A DNA stretch of 64,000 bases, taken from positions 3,100,001 through 3,164,000 of the forward strand of contig NZ_JAUTAY010000001.1 in NCBI RefSeq assembly GCF_030818795.1, in the 5' to 3' direction. Below the pieces are notes generated by a model. That model made no database searches and was not told the DNA's origin. It saw nothing but the letters and a program-made list of their open reading frames with translations. Both the position numbers and the translations under genes were made by a program. The DNA comes from Microbacterium sp. SORGH_AS_0862 (lineage in GTDB: Bacteria; Actinomycetota; Actinomycetes; Actinomycetales; Microbacteriaceae). Numbering within the stretch: position 1 is the first letter of the stretch; each line of letters opens with the position of its first letter. Positions 5,810 through 58,113 of this stretch are shown here, one piece after another.

Positions 5810-6856
5810 ATGTCGCGCGTCGTGAAGCTCGCCGTCATCCCCGGTGACGGAATCGGTCCGGAGGTCGTCGCCGAAGCCGACAAGGTGCTCGAAGCGGTTG
5901 CCGCCGGCACCGACGTGACGTTCGAGCGCACCTGGTTCTCGCTCGGTGCCGCGCGCTTTCTCGAGACCGGTGACACCCTCACCGACGACGATCTGGCGGC
6001 GATCGCCGCGCACGACGCCATCCTGCTCGGCGCCGTCGGGGGAGTGCCCGGCGACCCTCGCCTGAAGAACGCGAACATCGAGCGCGGCCTGCTGCTCAAG
6101 CTGCGCTTCGCGCTCGACCACTACGTGAACCTGCGCCCGTCCAAGCTGTACCCCGGCGCCAGCGGCCCCCTCGCCGACCCGGGCGAGATCGACTTCGTCG
6201 TGGTGCGCGAGGGGACCGAGGGTCCGTATGTCGGCAACGGGGGCGCGATCCGCGTGGGCACCCCGCACGAGGTGGCCAACGAGACCTCGGTGAACACGGC
6301 GTTCGGTGTCGAACGCGTCGTACGTTTCGCCTTCGCCGAGGCGGAGCGCCGCCGTAAGAAGCTCACCCTCGTGCACAAGACGAACGTCCTCGTCCACGCC
6401 GGGGGCATCTGGAAGCGGATCGTCGACGAGGTGGCGACGGAGCACCCCGACGTCGCCGTAGACTATCTGCACGTCGACGCGGCCACGATCTTCCTGGTCA
6501 CGAACCCCAGCCGCTTCGACGTGATCGTCACCGACAACCTCTTCGGTGACATCCTGACCGACCTGGCAGGTGCCGTCACCGGTGGCATCGGCCTCGCCGC
6601 ATCCGGGAACATCAATCCCGACGGCGACTTCCCGTCGATGTTCGAGCCCGTTCACGGTTCGGCTCCCGACATCGCGGGCCAGCAGAAGGCCGACCCCACG
6701 GCCGCGATCCTCTCGGTGGCTCTCCTGCTGAATCATCTGGGACTTCGCGATGACGCCGACCGCCTCACCCGCGCGGTCGAGGCCGACATCGCCGAGCGTT
6801 CCGATTCGGTCCGCACCACAGCACAGATCGGCGACGCGATCATCGCGCGGCTCTAG
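5810..6856 (+). CDS. leuB: 3-isopropylmalate dehydrogenase
   Basis: 348 residues. It oxidatively decarboxylates 3-isopropylmalate to 2-oxoisocaproate in leucine synthesis. Visible features are the N-terminal [11 protein letters not shown], the [10 protein letters not shown] active-site strand, the catalytic Y/K region (V-H-K-T-N-V-L), and the metal/NAD site ([12 protein letters not shown] and [12 protein letters not shown]). Length and motifs fit the actinobacterial LeuB branch. A GACAGGAG Shine-Dalgarno precedes the ATG. ilvE follows 67 bases later, so the last two steps of leucine formation are adjacent, while leuCD lie about 50 kb away at 56 kb. Confidence 0.95.
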
Positions 6857-53156: not shown

Positions 53157-54473
53157 TCAGAACGAGCGCAGATTCGCGCCGAGGCCGGCGTCGCCGTACT
53201 CGCGGCGCAGGATGCCGCGGCGGCGGAGGAGCGGCACCAGCTCGTCCAGCATGCGGTGCACGGTGACCGGATGCACATCGCCCCACAGCAGAACGCCGTC
53301 GTTGCCCCAGTCGCCCAACTGCTCGATGCGATCCGCGAGCTCGCCCGCCGTCCCCACCCACCCGGTGCCGTCCGAGATGCGGCCGAGGCGCGCGTGCGCG
53401 GCGAGGATCTCCCGCAGCGGCGTCTCGCGCGCGTCATGGTCGCCGACGAGCCGGCGGATGCTGCCGTGCGACACGTGTCCGGCGAACAGCCCGTCGGGCA
53501 GCGGTCGGTCGAGATCGAGCGCGGTGAGGTCGGTCTCCAGATCCGAGGACTGGCGCCGGGCGATCGCGCGCAGCGCGGATTCGTCGGGCGTGCGGGACGC
53601 GGCCACGAGCCGGTCCGCCTCCTCGGCGGAAGAGACGAGCACGGGCTGGATCGCGAACAGCACCTTCACGTCCGACGGGTTGCGGCCGCGCTCGCGCGCG
53701 GCCCGATGGATGCGCTCCCGGTAGGCGCGCACGCTCGCCTCGTCCAGAGGGGCGAGCGCGAGTTGCACGTCGGAGTGCGCTCCGGCGAACGCAAGGCCCC
53801 GTTCCGACCCGCCCGGTGACACGATCGCGGGTTCACCGTCGCTGAACGGCAGTGCGTTCAGTGGGCCGTCGAATCCGAAATGCTCGCCGCGATGGCGGAC
53901 GGCCCGCATCCGCGTCCCGTCCGCATAGCGGTCGTCGTCGCGGTCGAGGATCAGTGCGCCCTCGTCCCAGCTCCGCCACAGCGAGCGGATGCCGTCCAGC
54001 CACTCCTCGGCGCGGTCGTAGGCGGCATCGTGCCCGAGCGGCGCGTCGGTCCCGAAGTGACGGGCACTGCCGGTGTCGGTCACCACGTTCAGTCCCAGCC
54101 GGTGGCCGCTCAGGTGCTGCAGCGACGCGAACTGCCGGGCGGCCGTGTAGGGCAGGTACGCCGCGGGATTCACGGTGGGGACGACTCCCAGGTGCCGGGT
54201 CGCCGCGAACAGATACGGGGCCAGCACGAAGGGATCGTGTTTGGGGCCGCCGAAGGCGTGCCGCACCCGCAGATCGATCGTCTCCGCGGATCCGAGCGAG
54301 GGCGCATCCTCGATGATCAGCAGATCGAACCCTGCCTGCTCCAAGGTGCGCGCGGACTCCTGGTAGAGGTGCGGAGCCGTCCAGTCGTAGTCCCAGTCCA
54401 GGCTGGGCAGTCCCCAGCCGTGCGGACCGAACCCGCGGGCCAGGAACCAGCCGAAGTGCTGCGGACGGCTCAC
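53157..54473 (-). CDS. LLM-class flavin-dependent monooxygenase (NtaA/DmoA type)
   Basis: 438 residues. Luciferase-like barrel with long insertions: Q-H-F-G-W-F near the start, A-G-F-D-L-L-I-I-E-D, G-V-V-P-T-V-N, R-L-G-L-N-V-V-T and Y-D-R-A-E-E-W-L-D. Members release sulfite or amines from organosulfur compounds or chelators using reduced flavin. The GTG start at 54473 overlaps the stop of the MetY-like gene (GTGA), so they act together, probably in assimilating an organic sulfur source; this is inference. 4-base coupling decides the start. Confidence 0.85.
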   Translation of the reverse strand: MSRPQHFGWFLARGFGPHGWGLPSLDWDYDWTAPHLYQESARTLEQAGFDLLIIEDAPSLGSAETIDLRVRHAFGGPKHDPFVLAPYLFAATRHLGVVPTVNPAAYLPYTAARQFASLQHLSGHRLGLNVVTDTGSARHFGTDAPLGHDAAYDRAEEWLDGIRSLWRSWDEGALILDRDDDRYADGTRMRAVRHRGEHFGFDGPLNALPFSDGEPAIVSPGGSERGLAFAGAHSDVQLALAPLDEASVRAYRERIHRAARERGRNPSDVKVLFAIQPVLVSSAEEADRLVAASRTPDESALRAIARRQSSDLETDLTALDLDRPLPDGLFAGHVSHGSIRRLVGDHDARETPLREILAAHARLGRISDGTGWVGTAGELADRIEQLGDWGNDGVLLWGDVHPVTVHRMLDELVPLLRRRGILRREYGDAGLGANLRSF

Positions 54474-55789
54474 CCGATGACCTCGATCGTGCGTGCGGAT
54501 GCCGCGAGGGCGGCGGCCTTGAGCGCCCGCTCGAGATCGGCGATGAGGTCGTCGGCGTCCTCGATACCGATCGACAGCCGCAGCGTTCCCGGATACACGC
54601 CGAGCGCGGCGCGCGCATCGTCGGTGTGCTGCGCGTGACTCGTCGTGGCCGGATGCAGCACGAGTGAGCGGACGTCGCCGAGATGGGTCATGTGGGTCAC
54701 GACCTGTACCGCCTCGACGAAGGCGCGTGCCGCCGTCTCGCCGCCGTGCAGCGTGAAGGTGAACACCGACCCGGCGCCGCGGGGGAGAAGGCGCTCGGCG
54801 AGGGCGTGATGCGGATGGCTCGCGAGTCCCACGTAGTCGACCGACGCCACCTCGTCGCGGCTCTCGAGCCACGCCGCGATCCGTGCTGCATTCGCCGACT
54901 GCTCTCGCACCCGAAGATGCAGCGTCTCGATGCCCTGCGAGACGAGGAAGGCGTTCAGCGGCGAGGGCGTGGGGCCCAGCCGCGGGGCGACGGACTCTCG
55001 CACATAGGCCAGACGCGCGCGGGCGCCGTGGCGTTCCCACACGCTCGGCGCGCCGTCGTGGCGCGCGTTCACCAGCTGGGGGAAGAGCGCCCCCGAGCGG
55101 GCGGCGTCGAAGCGGCCGTCGTCGACGATCACGCCGCCGAGGGCCGCACCGTGGCCGGCGAGGAACTTGCTCGCCGAATGGACGACGACCGCCGCGCCCA
55201 GCTCGATCGGTCGCACGAGGTAGGGGGTCGCGAACGTGTTGTCGACGACGAGCGGGATGCCGAGGCCGTCCGCCACGGCGGCGATGGCGGGCACGTCCAG
55301 CAGATCGTTGCGCGCATTGCCGATGGACTCCGCGAACAGGGCACGGGTCTCGGGCCGGATCGCGTCCTGCCACGCGCGCGGGTCCGCGATGTCGTCGACA
55401 TAGGTGACCGTCACCCCGAACCGGGAGAGCAGGTCGTTCACCAGCCCGCGCGTTCCCTCGTAGATGTGGGTGGAACTGACCAGGTGATCACCGGCCGAGA
55501 GCAGCGACAGCAGCGCGACGGAGACGGCCGCCTGGCCGCTGCCGACGAACACCGCGCCGGCGCCGCCCTCCAGTTCGGCGAGGCGGCGCTCGAGGGCGTC
55601 GACGGTCGGGTTGCCGGTGCGCGTGTAGCCGTAGCCGTCGCCCGTCGCGAAGTGCGCGGCCGCGTGGTCGAAGTCGTCGAAGCGGAAGCCGGCGGTCATG
55701 TAGACCGGGACGGTGCGCGATGCCGCATCCGTCCAATCGGTGCCGCTGTGCACCTGTCGCGTGGCGAATCCGTGGGTGGGTTCGGTCAT
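54470..55789 (-). CDS. O-acetylhomoserine sulfhydrylase-like PLP enzyme
   Basis: 439 residues, Cys/Met-metabolism PLP family. F-A-T-R-Q-V-H-S-G at the start, T-G-N-P-T active-site loop, F-V-G-S-G-Q-A-A, D-N-T-F-A-T-P-Y, and the PLP lysine in H-S-A-S-K-F-L-A-G-H-G. Length and the A-R-H-D-G-A-P-S insertion fit MetY-type enzymes that make homocysteine from O-acetylhomoserine and sulfide. Paired with an LLM oxygenase gene downstream, suggesting organosulfur scavenging. A TAGGCT -10-like box lies about 30 bases upstream. Confidence 0.86.
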   Translation of the reverse strand: MTEPTHGFATRQVHSGTDWTDAASRTVPVYMTAGFRFDDFDHAAAHFATGDGYGYTRTGNPTVDALERRLAELEGGAGAVFVGSGQAAVSVALLSLLSAGDHLVSSTHIYEGTRGLVNDLLSRFGVTVTYVDDIADPRAWQDAIRPETRALFAESIGNARNDLLDVPAIAAVADGLGIPLVVDNTFATPYLVRPIELGAAVVVHSASKFLAGHGAALGGVIVDDGRFDAARSGALFPQLVNARHDGAPSVWERHGARARLAYVRESVAPRLGPTPSPLNAFLVSQGIETLHLRVREQSANAARIAAWLESRDEVASVDYVGLASHPHHALAERLLPRGAGSVFTFTLHGGETAARAFVEAVQVVTHMTHLGDVRSLVLHPATTSHAQHTDDARAALGVYPGTLRLSIGIEDADDLIADLERALKAAALAASARTIEVIG

Positions 55790-55911
55790 GAGGGTCCTGC
55801 CGTCTCGGGTCGCAGCAGCCTAAGAGCGCAGACCGCTCGCGGGCGAGTGCGCCGACACACAACGTCACCTGGGCGCCCGTGCGGGTGGGCCGCGGCCCCG
55901 GAGCTCGGTGG

Positions 55912-55917
55912 TAGCCT
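55912..55917 (+). promoter_or_regulatory. -10 box of the leuL-leuC transcript
   Basis: TAGCCT is six bases before the GTG of the leader peptide ORF, the same geometry as the other leaderless starts here. Confidence 0.55.
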
Positions 55918-55923
55918 GTGCGG

Positions 55924-55968
55924 GTGCGGATCGCTCGCCTTCTCCTTCGCAGCCGCGACGAGTCCTAG
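55924..55968 (+). CDS. leuL: Leucine-rich leader peptide of the leuCD operon
   Basis: A 14-residue [17 protein letters not shown], starts at a GTG six bases after a -10 box and ends at TAG 55966-55968. Three consecutive Leu codons (CTT CTC CTT) lie at its centre. Directly overlapping its end is a perfect 10-bp stem (55953-55962 with 55981-55990). Leu codons in a short ORF before leu genes are the classical design of ribosome-mediated attenuation: stalling for lack of leucyl-tRNA would alter this hairpin. There is no T run after the hairpin, so the control may be on translation or Rho access rather than intrinsic termination. Confidence 0.7.
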
Positions 55969-55990
55969 ACCCAGGCCTCCCTCGTCGCGG
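55953..55990 (+). promoter_or_regulatory. Attenuator hairpin of leuCD
   Basis: CCGCGACGAG and CTCGTCGCGG form a perfect 10-bp stem with an 18-base loop that begins inside the leader ORF and ends 46 bases before leuC. No T run follows, unlike a simple terminator. Confidence 0.6.
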
Positions 55991-56036
55991 AGTTCGTTGC
56001 GGGCTTGATCCACCGTCATCTCAGGAGAACGACAGC

Positions 56037-57506
56037 ATGAGCAATCCCGATCACTCCGCGGCGTCCGCGCCGCGCACCCTGGCCGAGAAGGTCTGGGACA
56101 ACCACCTGGTGGTCAAGGGCGAGGACGGCCAGCCCGACCTCATCTACATCGACCTGCACCTCGTGCACGAGGTCACGAGTCCGCAGGCCTTCGACGGTCT
56201 CCGCGCCGAAGGGCGGGGTCTGCGGCGCCTCGACCTGACGATCGCGACCGAGGATCACAACACCCCGACGCTCGCGATCGACAAGCCGATCGCAGACCCG
56301 ACCAGCCGCCTGCAGATCGAGACGCTGCGCCGCAACGCCGCCGAGTTCGGTGTGCGCATCCACTCGCTGGGCGACGCCGAGCAGGGCATCGTGCACGTCG
56401 TCGGTCCACAGCTGGGGCTGACCATGCCGGGCATCACGGTCGTGTGCGGCGACTCGCACACCTCCACCCACGGCGCCTTCGGGGCGATGGCCTTCGGCAT
56501 CGGCACGAGCGAGGTCGAGCACGTCATGGCTACACAGACCCTGCCGCTGAAGCCGTTCAAGACCATGGCCATCACGGTCGAGGGAACGCTGCGCCCGGGC
56601 GTCACCGCGAAGGACATCATCCTCGCCGTCATCGCGAAGATCGGAACCAATGGCGGGCAGGGCTACGTGCTCGAGTTCCGCGGCAGCGCCATCCGCGCCC
56701 TCTCGATGGAGGGGCGTATGACGATGTGCAACATGTCGATCGAGGCGGGCGCGCGCGCCGGCATGGTCGCCCCGGACGAGACCACGTTCGCGTATCTGAA
56801 GGGCCGTCCGCACGCCCCGAAGGGGCAGGACTGGGAGGATGCGGTCGCTTACTGGCGCACGCTCCCGAGCGACGAGGGCGCCGTCTACGACGCGGAGGTC
56901 TTCCTCGACGCGGACGAGCTCGAGCCCTTCGTGACCTGGGGCACGAACCCCGGTCAAGGGGTGTCGCTGAACGACGTCGTACCGACGCCGTCCGAGATCG
57001 CGGACCCGAACGAGCGCGTGGCCGCCGAACGCGCGCTGCAGTACATGGATCTCGTCCCCGGCACGAAGCTGAAGGACGTCCCCGTGGATGCGGTCTTCAT
57101 GGGCTCGTGCACCAACAGTCGCATCGAGGACCTGCGCGCATTCGCGTCTATCGTCAAGGGCCGCAAGAAGGCCGAAGGCGTGCGGGTCATGGTCGTGCCC
57201 GGCTCCGCCCGCGTCCGGCTGGAAGCGGAAGCCGAGGGACTGCACCGCATCTTCGAGGAGTTCGGGGCGGAGTGGCGTTTCGCCGGATGCTCGATGTGCC
57301 TGGGCATGAACCCCGATCAGCTCGCTCCGGGCGAGCGGTGCGCATCCACGTCGAACCGCAACTTCGAGGGTCGGCAGGGCAAGGGCGGGCGTACGCACCT
57401 GGTGTCGCCGCTCGTCGCTGCGGCGACCGCGGTGCGCGGAACGCTGTCCAGTCCGGGGGATCTCGATCCCGTCGAAGAGCCGGCGATCGTCGGGGCGGGG
57501 GTCTGA
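56037..57506 (+). CDS. leuC: 3-isopropylmalate dehydratase large subunit
   Basis: 489 residues. It isomerises 2- and 3-isopropylmalate with LeuD. The 4Fe-4S ligands are in G-S-C-T-N-S-R and C-S-M-C-L-G; other blocks are [15 protein letters not shown] and [12 protein letters not shown]. The ATG at 56037 with AGGAGA upstream is used; the longer frame would overlap leuL. leuD begins one base after the stop. Confidence 0.96.
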
Positions 57507-57507
57507 C

Positions 57508-58113
57508 ATGGAGAAGTTCAGCGTTCACACCGGTGTCGCCGCCGCCCTCAAGCGTTCCGCCGTCGACACGGACCAGATCATCCCCGCGGTCTACCTGAAG
57601 CGGGTGACCAAGACGGGCTTCGAGGATGCGCTGTTCGCCAACTGGCGCCAGGATCCCGACTTCGTGCTGAACCAGCCGATCTTCGCTCAGAGCTCGATCC
57701 TCGTCGCCGGGCCCGACTTCGGCACCGGCTCGAGCCGTGAGCACGCGGTCTGGGCCCTGCGCGACTACGGATTCAAGGTCGTGCTGAGCCCCAAGTTCGC
57801 CGACATCTTCCGCGGCAACGCGGGCAAGCAGGGACTCGTGACGGGTGTCGTGACCGAGGCCGACATCGAAGCTCTCTGGGCGGCGATCGACGCGCAGCCC
57901 GGCATGGAGATGACGGTTGATCTGACGGCACGCGAGGTCGTCGCGGGCGAACTCCGAGTCCCGTTCGAGATCGACGATTACACTAGATGGCGGTTGCTGG
58001 AGGGTCTCGACGACATCGGGCTCACGCTCCGCAACGAAGACAAGATCGCCGCCTACGAAGCGCGACGCGAATCCTGGAAGCCGCGGACACTCCCGCCCCT
58101 TCCCGCACAGTGA
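57508..58113 (+). CDS. leuD: 3-isopropylmalate dehydratase small subunit
   Basis: 201 residues, aconitase swivel domain. N-terminal [13 protein letters not shown] and the conserved [17 protein letters not shown]. Pairs with LeuC. murA follows 10 bases later, so the leucine and murein genes may share a transcript. Confidence 0.95.

Follow-up and report, generated by a model that had tools for sequence, protein, structure and literature searches.

The stretch of Microbacterium sp. SORGH_AS_0862 DNA that was analysed, 64,000 nucleotides in length and referred to here as the window, contains leuC and leuD in tandem, and the leader upstream of leuC separates them from a divergent O-acetylhomoserine sulfhydrylase-like gene (Table 1). 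The leader contains a small upstream open reading frame (uORF) of 14 codons running from GTG to TAG (GTG CGG ATC GCT CGC CTT CTC CTT CGC AGC CGC GAC GAG TCC TAG), followed at a distance of 68 nt by the ATG of leuC. A stem of ten perfect pairs (P2) begins inside the uORF: its 5' arm consists entirely of uORF coding sequence, and the stop codon of the uORF lies within the loop. The 14-residue uORF with three Leu codons and the perfect 10-bp hairpin starting within it, both of which had been described in the original prediction, are thus present as stated.

Table 1. Positions, in the window, of the features of the leuC leader and of the neighbouring genes.
Feature	Position	Strand	Basis
-10-like box TAGCCT	55912-55917	+	Sequence; spacing fits a leaderless uORF transcript
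Leaderless-type uORF, 14-residue leader peptide	55924-55968	+	Sequence; conserved before leuC and leuA
P1 5' strand GGATC-GCTCGC	55928-55938	+	Permutation test and fixed-register pairing
Leu codons CTT CTC CTT	55939-55947	+	Codon bias, modelled pairing with the Shine-Dalgarno sequence
P3 5' strand (antisense to the leuC Shine-Dalgarno sequence)	55940-55946	+	Modelled pairing probability with the Shine-Dalgarno sequence, 0.98
P2 hairpin 5' strand CCGCGACGAG	55953-55962	+	In 51 sequences, 99.8% of cells are paired and two pairs show compensatory changes
P4 loop strand CAGGCCT, which may form a pseudoknot with 56001-56007	55972-55978	+	Fixed-register pairing, permutation
P2 hairpin 3' strand CTCGTCGCGG	55981-55990	+	Same pairing evidence as the P2 5' strand
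P1 3' strand GCGGGC-TT-GATCC	55999-56011	+	P1 pairing tests
P4 3' strand GGGCTTG	56001-56007	+	Lies inside the P1 3' strand
leuC Shine-Dalgarno sequence AGGAGAA (P3 3' strand)	56023-56029	+	Sequence, folding
leuC, 3-isopropylmalate dehydratase large subunit	56037-57506	+	TIGR00170 above cut-off
leuD, small subunit	57508-58113	+	TIGR00171 above cut-off
Divergent neighbour, O-acetylhomoserine sulfhydrylase-like	54470-55789	-	Best models below curated cut-offs

The GTG of the uORF is the seventh base after the hexamer TAGCCT, so that the start codon coincides with the expected transcription start site and ribosomes would translate the uORF on a leaderless transcript; a consensus sigma-70 scan of the leader returned no -35/-10 pair. 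By inspection of the sequence no T-run follows the P2 hairpin, and an intrinsic-terminator attenuator was rejected on this ground; the sole terminator-like site in 55780-56100 spans 55920-55938, at the 5' end of the uORF and before P2. Attenuation of a kind other than intrinsic termination, as had been proposed, fits both the missing T-run and the complementarity of the Leu run to the leuC Shine-Dalgarno (SD) sequence described below. The Rfam covariance models gave no match in 55700-56200 at E values up to 1. In folding of the leader RNA, which had been suggested as a check, the energy of the single-sequence fold is unremarkable (-44.7 kcal/mol, z -0.71, with 47 of 200 shuffles equally good or better) and was set aside as not significant; the pairing of the Leu run with the SD sequence was modelled at a high probability. 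The case for the leader is one of conservation and covariation, from which folding energy is excluded. The gene leuB (5810-6856), a 3-isopropylmalate dehydrogenase according to NCBIfam, starts 12 or 29 bases past the open frame ahead of it, according to which of two frames is taken as the gene, and, as had been anticipated, no comparable leader was found before it in the window.

Conservation was examined at leuC loci comprising the 30 best from 199 sampled Microbacteriaceae genomes and the 80 best found among public genome contigs. Removal of three duplicate entries from 111 (the loci L012/L083 and L024/L095 are duplicates) left 108 distinct loci from related species, mostly Microbacterium. 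A uORF was scored where a frame 6-35 codons long and containing two or more consecutive Leu codons stood upstream of leuC; in this mechanical test 97 of the 111 entries scored, and a uORF with a Leu run is present in 92 of the 108 distinct loci, the spurious uORFs of L007 and L108 being scored as misses. The promoter spacing also recurs: in 89 of these 92 distinct leaders the uORF start is preceded, at 6-7 nt, by a TANNNT box. Among the 16 distinct loci lacking the uORF are those of Frigoribacterium, Curtobacterium and several relatives with small genomes; at one of them, L017, a model match lies upstream of leuC by coordinates. The ORF, the Leu codons and the stem are therefore conserved in relatives and not lost, the latter being the outcome that the original prediction had named against itself when it called for this alignment. 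From 53 representative leaders, 50 were used in the pairing, folding and permutation tests, after L008 and L009 (uncertain uORF start) and L033 (shortened SD region) had been dropped, and the alignments A1 and A2 hold 51 leaders each, without L008 and L009. A Microbacterium-type leuC with the leader is also found on a contig titled Stenotrophomonas maltophilia (L074, JACEFY010000038.1), a record that is probably contaminated or mislabelled. Microbacterium sp. BR1 has a second leuC without such a uORF (L094, NZ_NMUN01000002.1), its other leuC (L057) carrying the leader.

The P2 hairpin occurs in all 51 aligned leaders, with 99.8% of cells paired; six of its ten pairs are invariant and two have changed on both sides, from A-U to G-C. 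RNAalifold on A1 returned the P2 stem alone, with little covariation credit, and P3, the pairing of the Leu run with the SD sequence, appeared under RIBOSUM scoring of a separate alignment of 53 leaders. In P1, codons 2-5 of the uORF pair with a segment 3' of the hairpin at -11.1 kcal/mol, compared with -9.9 +/- 0.3 kcal/mol for swapped partners; this was matched by 2 of 5000 permutations, and 54% of cells are paired at one fixed register. In P4, the P2 loop pairs with a segment 3' of the hairpin, with 74% of cells paired at the fixed register and 28 of 5000 permutations as good. P2 and P4 together reach 90%, compared with 33-50% when slid. Two of the five counts for P2/P4 do not exceed those of shuffles: pairs changed on both sides were as numerous in 130 of 500 shuffles and further pair types in 150 of 500, the former count for P1 being equalled in 324 of 500. 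Support for P1 and P4, either of which would make a pseudoknot, is moderate. Since the 3' strand of P1 overlaps that of P4, the two are mutually exclusive, an arrangement that would suit a switch.

The Leu runs of the 88 distinct leaders hold 156 CTT, 112 CTC and 8 CTG codons, so that CTT accounts for 57% of leader Leu codons, compared with 1.9% CTT, 49% CTC and 47% CTG in the leuC genes of the same loci. Such pyrimidine-rich CTT/CTC runs are complementary to purine-rich SD sequences; in the window, TTCTCCT within the run pairs with the SD sequence AGGAGAA over seven bases. In permutation tests, which like the Wilcoxon tests used here ignore relatedness among leaders, the pairing score of 88 leaders with their own SD sequences was 15.1, compared with 14.4 +/- 0.2 with the SD sequences of other species (0 of 5000), and the pairing energy of 50 leaders was -9.66 kcal/mol, compared with -8.92 kcal/mol for swapped SD sequences (15 of 5000). 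After synonymous recoding according to gene codon usage the mean energy between run and SD sequence changed from -9.66 to -8.14, and none of 200 null sets was as good; when CTT and CTC were drawn equally, 3 of 200 null sets matched the pairing.

Ensemble folding gave a probability of 0.98 for pairing of the SD sequence with the Leu run in the window, and the modelled openness of the SD sequence was 0.02 in the free RNA and 0.62 with the Leu codons covered. Over 50 leaders, SD openness rises in 44 when the Leu codons alone are covered; when the assumed ribosome footprint reaches 12 nt past the Leu run the number falls to 39. In 46 of the 50 the SD sequence is more open when the leader is recoded. 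The median probability of pairing is 0.76; it falls below 0.1 in 11 of the 50, and in the leuA leader of this genome P3 is not predicted (probability 0.03; for two of the 25 leuA loci in this folding no start was found), and both of these results, like the smaller number obtained with the larger footprint, count against the attenuation model set out below.

A covariance model, R1, was built solely from 51 leuC leaders and was searched against the genome itself, where it found the leuC leader (E 2.9e-17) and a site before leuA (E 2.0e-14), the next match being at 0.27. The leuA leader of this genome encodes the peptide MRAAVLLLSRRDETSI and contains the same hairpin. Because R1, which contains no leuA sequence, recovers the leader of leuA, the leuC leader is, judged from sequence, the LEU element described by Seliverstov (2005) for actinobacterial leuA, represented in S. 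lividans by leuL1, here placed before leuC. Of the traits of the LEU element, the leuC leader shows the uORF with a Leu run and homology with leuA leaders; it precedes leuC and not leuA, before which a separate copy stands. As for the pseudoknot or alternative hairpin, compared here with the published text, P2 is firm, and P4 and P1 are supported yet overlapping. The original prediction mentioned neither the leuA counterpart in this genome, nor the LEU identity, nor the pairing of the Leu run with the SD sequence.

R1 matched 156 of 198 genomes of the order and 222 of 246 of the class (E <= 0.01, stricter filters), the genes downstream of the matches being checked for a subset. All 16 matches outside Microbacteriaceae that were given loci in the order search lie before leuA, as do 19 of 20 further outside regions, the remaining one being a contig end of 213 bases. 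Within Microbacteriaceae, 191 of 199 genomes have a match, 127 of them at least two and 64 one, the second matches being candidate leuC leaders. Outside this family, where a genome has a second match, it is followed by a second leuA-like gene or by leuB, or is a chance match; L164, L180 and L193 were placed in none of these classes, and the model matches L168, L169 and L171 looked like chance and were discarded. LEU elements precede second leuA-like genes, with approximately 55% identity to LeuA of the window genome, at L156, L158, L166 and L170.

The leaders of leuA and leuC were compared in 25 of 29 genomes, L122, L123, L130 and L157 having been dropped as no leuA uORF was found. Identity was 0.81 among leuA leaders, 0.78 among leuC leaders, and 0.797 between the leuA and leuC leaders of the same genome, compared with 0.783 between genomes. 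The own leuC leader is the best leuC match for 2 of the 25 leuA leaders, and the two leader peptides are identical in a single genome of the 25 (G011). Recent duplication or concerted evolution was rejected on these values; since identity within a genome is barely above that between genomes, the duplication looks old and not repeated.

In four other families (f18, f2, f45 and f38), LEU-like leaders with mixed Ile/Val/Leu codons and the same kind of hairpin are followed by leuB. There are 11 such loci (L159-L163, L165, L182, L184, L186, L188 and L192, the last with few such codons), and L189 has the same leuB-type leader by eye. These leaders may be a related element that senses branched-chain amino acids more broadly. 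Between leader and leuB lies a tiny conserved frame of approximately 20-45 codons (...ALQESLDLRD... or a variant, by eye) in L159-L165 and L182-L188. In families f32 and f29 no genome listed in the class search has an R1 match, although in f32 7 of 9 genomes, and in f29 1 of 3, have a strong leuC match (E <= 1e-200).

The search was extended to the sequence upstream of leuC in 40 genomes representing 35 other families. The LEU element was found before leuC in none of these 40 regions with R1 and filters off (best E 0.19), and 33 of 39 mechanically chosen divergent open frames beside leuC matched the IclR helix-turn-helix. A tblastn search with five of these divergent proteins as queries, their source regions included, found an NdgR/LtbR-like gene at no less than 57% identity in 37 of the 40 regions; the name rests on the IclR domain, the place beside leuC and PMC4340878, NCBIfam giving weak matches to other IclR families. 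At the 110 leuC loci from Microbacteriaceae, 108 of them distinct, no such gene was detected at E <= 1e-3 in flanks of up to 1.5 kb. Genome-wide, one of these queries gave a match at E <= 1e-30 in 178 of the 184 genomes that belong to other families of the order and in 0 of the 14 that belong to Microbacteriaceae. Among 199 Microbacteriaceae genomes, seven have any match at 1e-15 (best 1.3e-20), at 36-43% identity, as would be expected of other IclR proteins. In the window, the O-acetylhomoserine sulfhydrylase-like gene stands where most of the sampled outside actinobacteria have the NdgR/LtbR-like gene. Within Microbacteriaceae the leader thus appears to have been gained and the NdgR/LtbR-like regulator is, in these searches, absent; some members lack both the leuC leader and a nearby gene for the regulator.

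Taken together, we assign a probability of roughly 0.62 to the reading that the leuC leader is a copy of the LEU element before leuCD that most likely acts by translational attenuation. When leucine is plentiful, the ribosome would complete the uORF, whose stop codon lies in the loop of P2, and the segment containing the Leu codons would be exposed again and pair with the SD sequence, so that leuC would be poorly translated. When charged tRNA-Leu is scarce, the ribosome would pause on the Leu codons and keep them off the SD sequence, and leuC would be translated. P3 would accordingly sequester the SD sequence and a stalled ribosome would free it.

Transcriptional attenuation that dispenses with an intrinsic terminator, in which fast translation clears the 3' part of the leader of ribosomes and either Rho or a pause at P2 ends transcription ahead of leuC, unless a stalled ribosome prevents it, is a rather unlikely alternative. 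It agrees with the missing T-run and with the place of the sole terminator-like site ahead of P2, and Rho has been proposed for terminator-less actinobacterial cys leaders in the available text of PMC1262725; it leaves unexplained that the Leu codons are antisense to the SD sequence and biased towards CTT, and no more than 68 nt lie between the uORF and leuC. It is improbable that the leader is the binding site of a trans-acting protein, as in the helicase-like protein proposed by Seliverstov, in the part of that work consulted, for the LEU element of leuA, with the uORF incidental or secondary. The near invariance of the hairpin, beyond the needs of pairing, speaks for such a site, although the 5' arm of P2 is uORF coding sequence, which could explain part of this invariance; the retention of the Leu-run uORF with its promoter box at fixed spacing speaks against it, and the mixed codons of the leuB leaders in other families suggest that codon content matters. 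The available text of PMC1262725 also cites S. coelicolor leuA leader mutants in which changes of the Leu codons had effects inconsistent with classical attenuation, which has been taken to favour a protein site. Under translational attenuation such mutations would alter stalling and SD pairing together, so that mixed results would be expected, a reading made after the fact.

A constitutive role, in which the uORF merely tunes the translation of leuC or the stability of its mRNA and leucine is not sensed, is very improbable in view of a run of rare Leu codons in the leader of a leucine-pathway operon, common to leuA, and of the Ile/Val/Leu codons held by leuB leaders elsewhere. It is scarcely credible that the inverted repeat acts in DNA, as the operator of a transcription factor, and not as an RNA hairpin. 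The length of the repeat and its place between divergent genes would suit an operator, but this reading was rejected as the spacer between the arms varies between species, unlike that of a dyad operator; the occurrence of the same element with its uORF before leuA at unrelated loci and the RNA pairing with the SD sequence also speak against it.

The LEU copy of Microbacteriaceae may have taken over the leucine control of leuCD from a lost IclR-type NdgR/LtbR regulator. It seems that an RNA leader replaced a protein regulator at leuCD, although we infer this and the two events could be independent. We lean slightly towards a history in which, at or near the origin of Microbacteriaceae, NdgR/LtbR was lost, the LEU element of leuA was duplicated and placed ahead of leuC, and its rare CTT codons came to serve both as starvation sensor and as anti-SD sequence. 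If so, one kind of translation-sensing RNA would stand before both leuA and leuCD, and CTT codons with a dual role would also explain the puzzling Leu-codon mutants of Streptomyces leuA. Microbacteriaceae may clearly exemplify how control of a gene passes from a transcription factor to an RNA leader, with the presence or absence of both scored in approximately 200 genomes of this one family. The mechanism of the LEU element was left open in 2005 in the available text of PMC1262725, and no later solution was found in the open-access literature; the 88 distinct natural variants present a codon choice with a possible double role, stalling and anti-SD pairing, that is separable by mutation.

In conclusion, this study reports a LEU element, itself an already known kind of element, at a position that appears to be new, together with a codon/SD logic traced over many variants and a coincidence with the absence of an NdgR-like regulator, both of which also appear to be new. 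A search of the open-access literature by title and abstract returned no leuC leader in Actinobacteria. The leader occupies the regulatory position beside leuCD that is held elsewhere by NdgR, LtbR and AreB; in the available text of PMC4340878, NdgR and its orthologues, C. glutamicum LtbR being named, adjoin leuCD and regulate leucine synthesis. Unlike the leader, these are DNA-binding IclR-type proteins, and the searches gave no match of ortholog strength for them in Microbacteriaceae. The ilvB-II motif and ilvBNC attenuators of Corynebacterium share with it a uORF with branched-chain amino acid codons before a pathway operon, but are described, in the available text of PMC10272879, with terminator and antiterminator stems and as acting by transcription attenuation. 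The leuL1 leader of S. lividans TK24 offers a precedent: it encodes a comparable peptide (MRFGLLLLSCRGEGL), was shown by RNA-seq to be leaderless and has no intrinsic terminator (available text of PMC8079986); unlike the present leader it precedes leuA, and none of the eight leaders named in that text belongs to leuC. The LEU element of leuA, for which the available text of PMC1262725 describes a leader peptide with a Leu run, pairing of the run with the SD sequence and a possible pseudoknot, and in whose main text the words leuC, leuCD and leuB are absent, agrees with the present leader in the Leu-run uORF and the pairing between run and SD sequence, may also share with it a pseudoknot-capable region, and differs in that the present copy stands before leuC.
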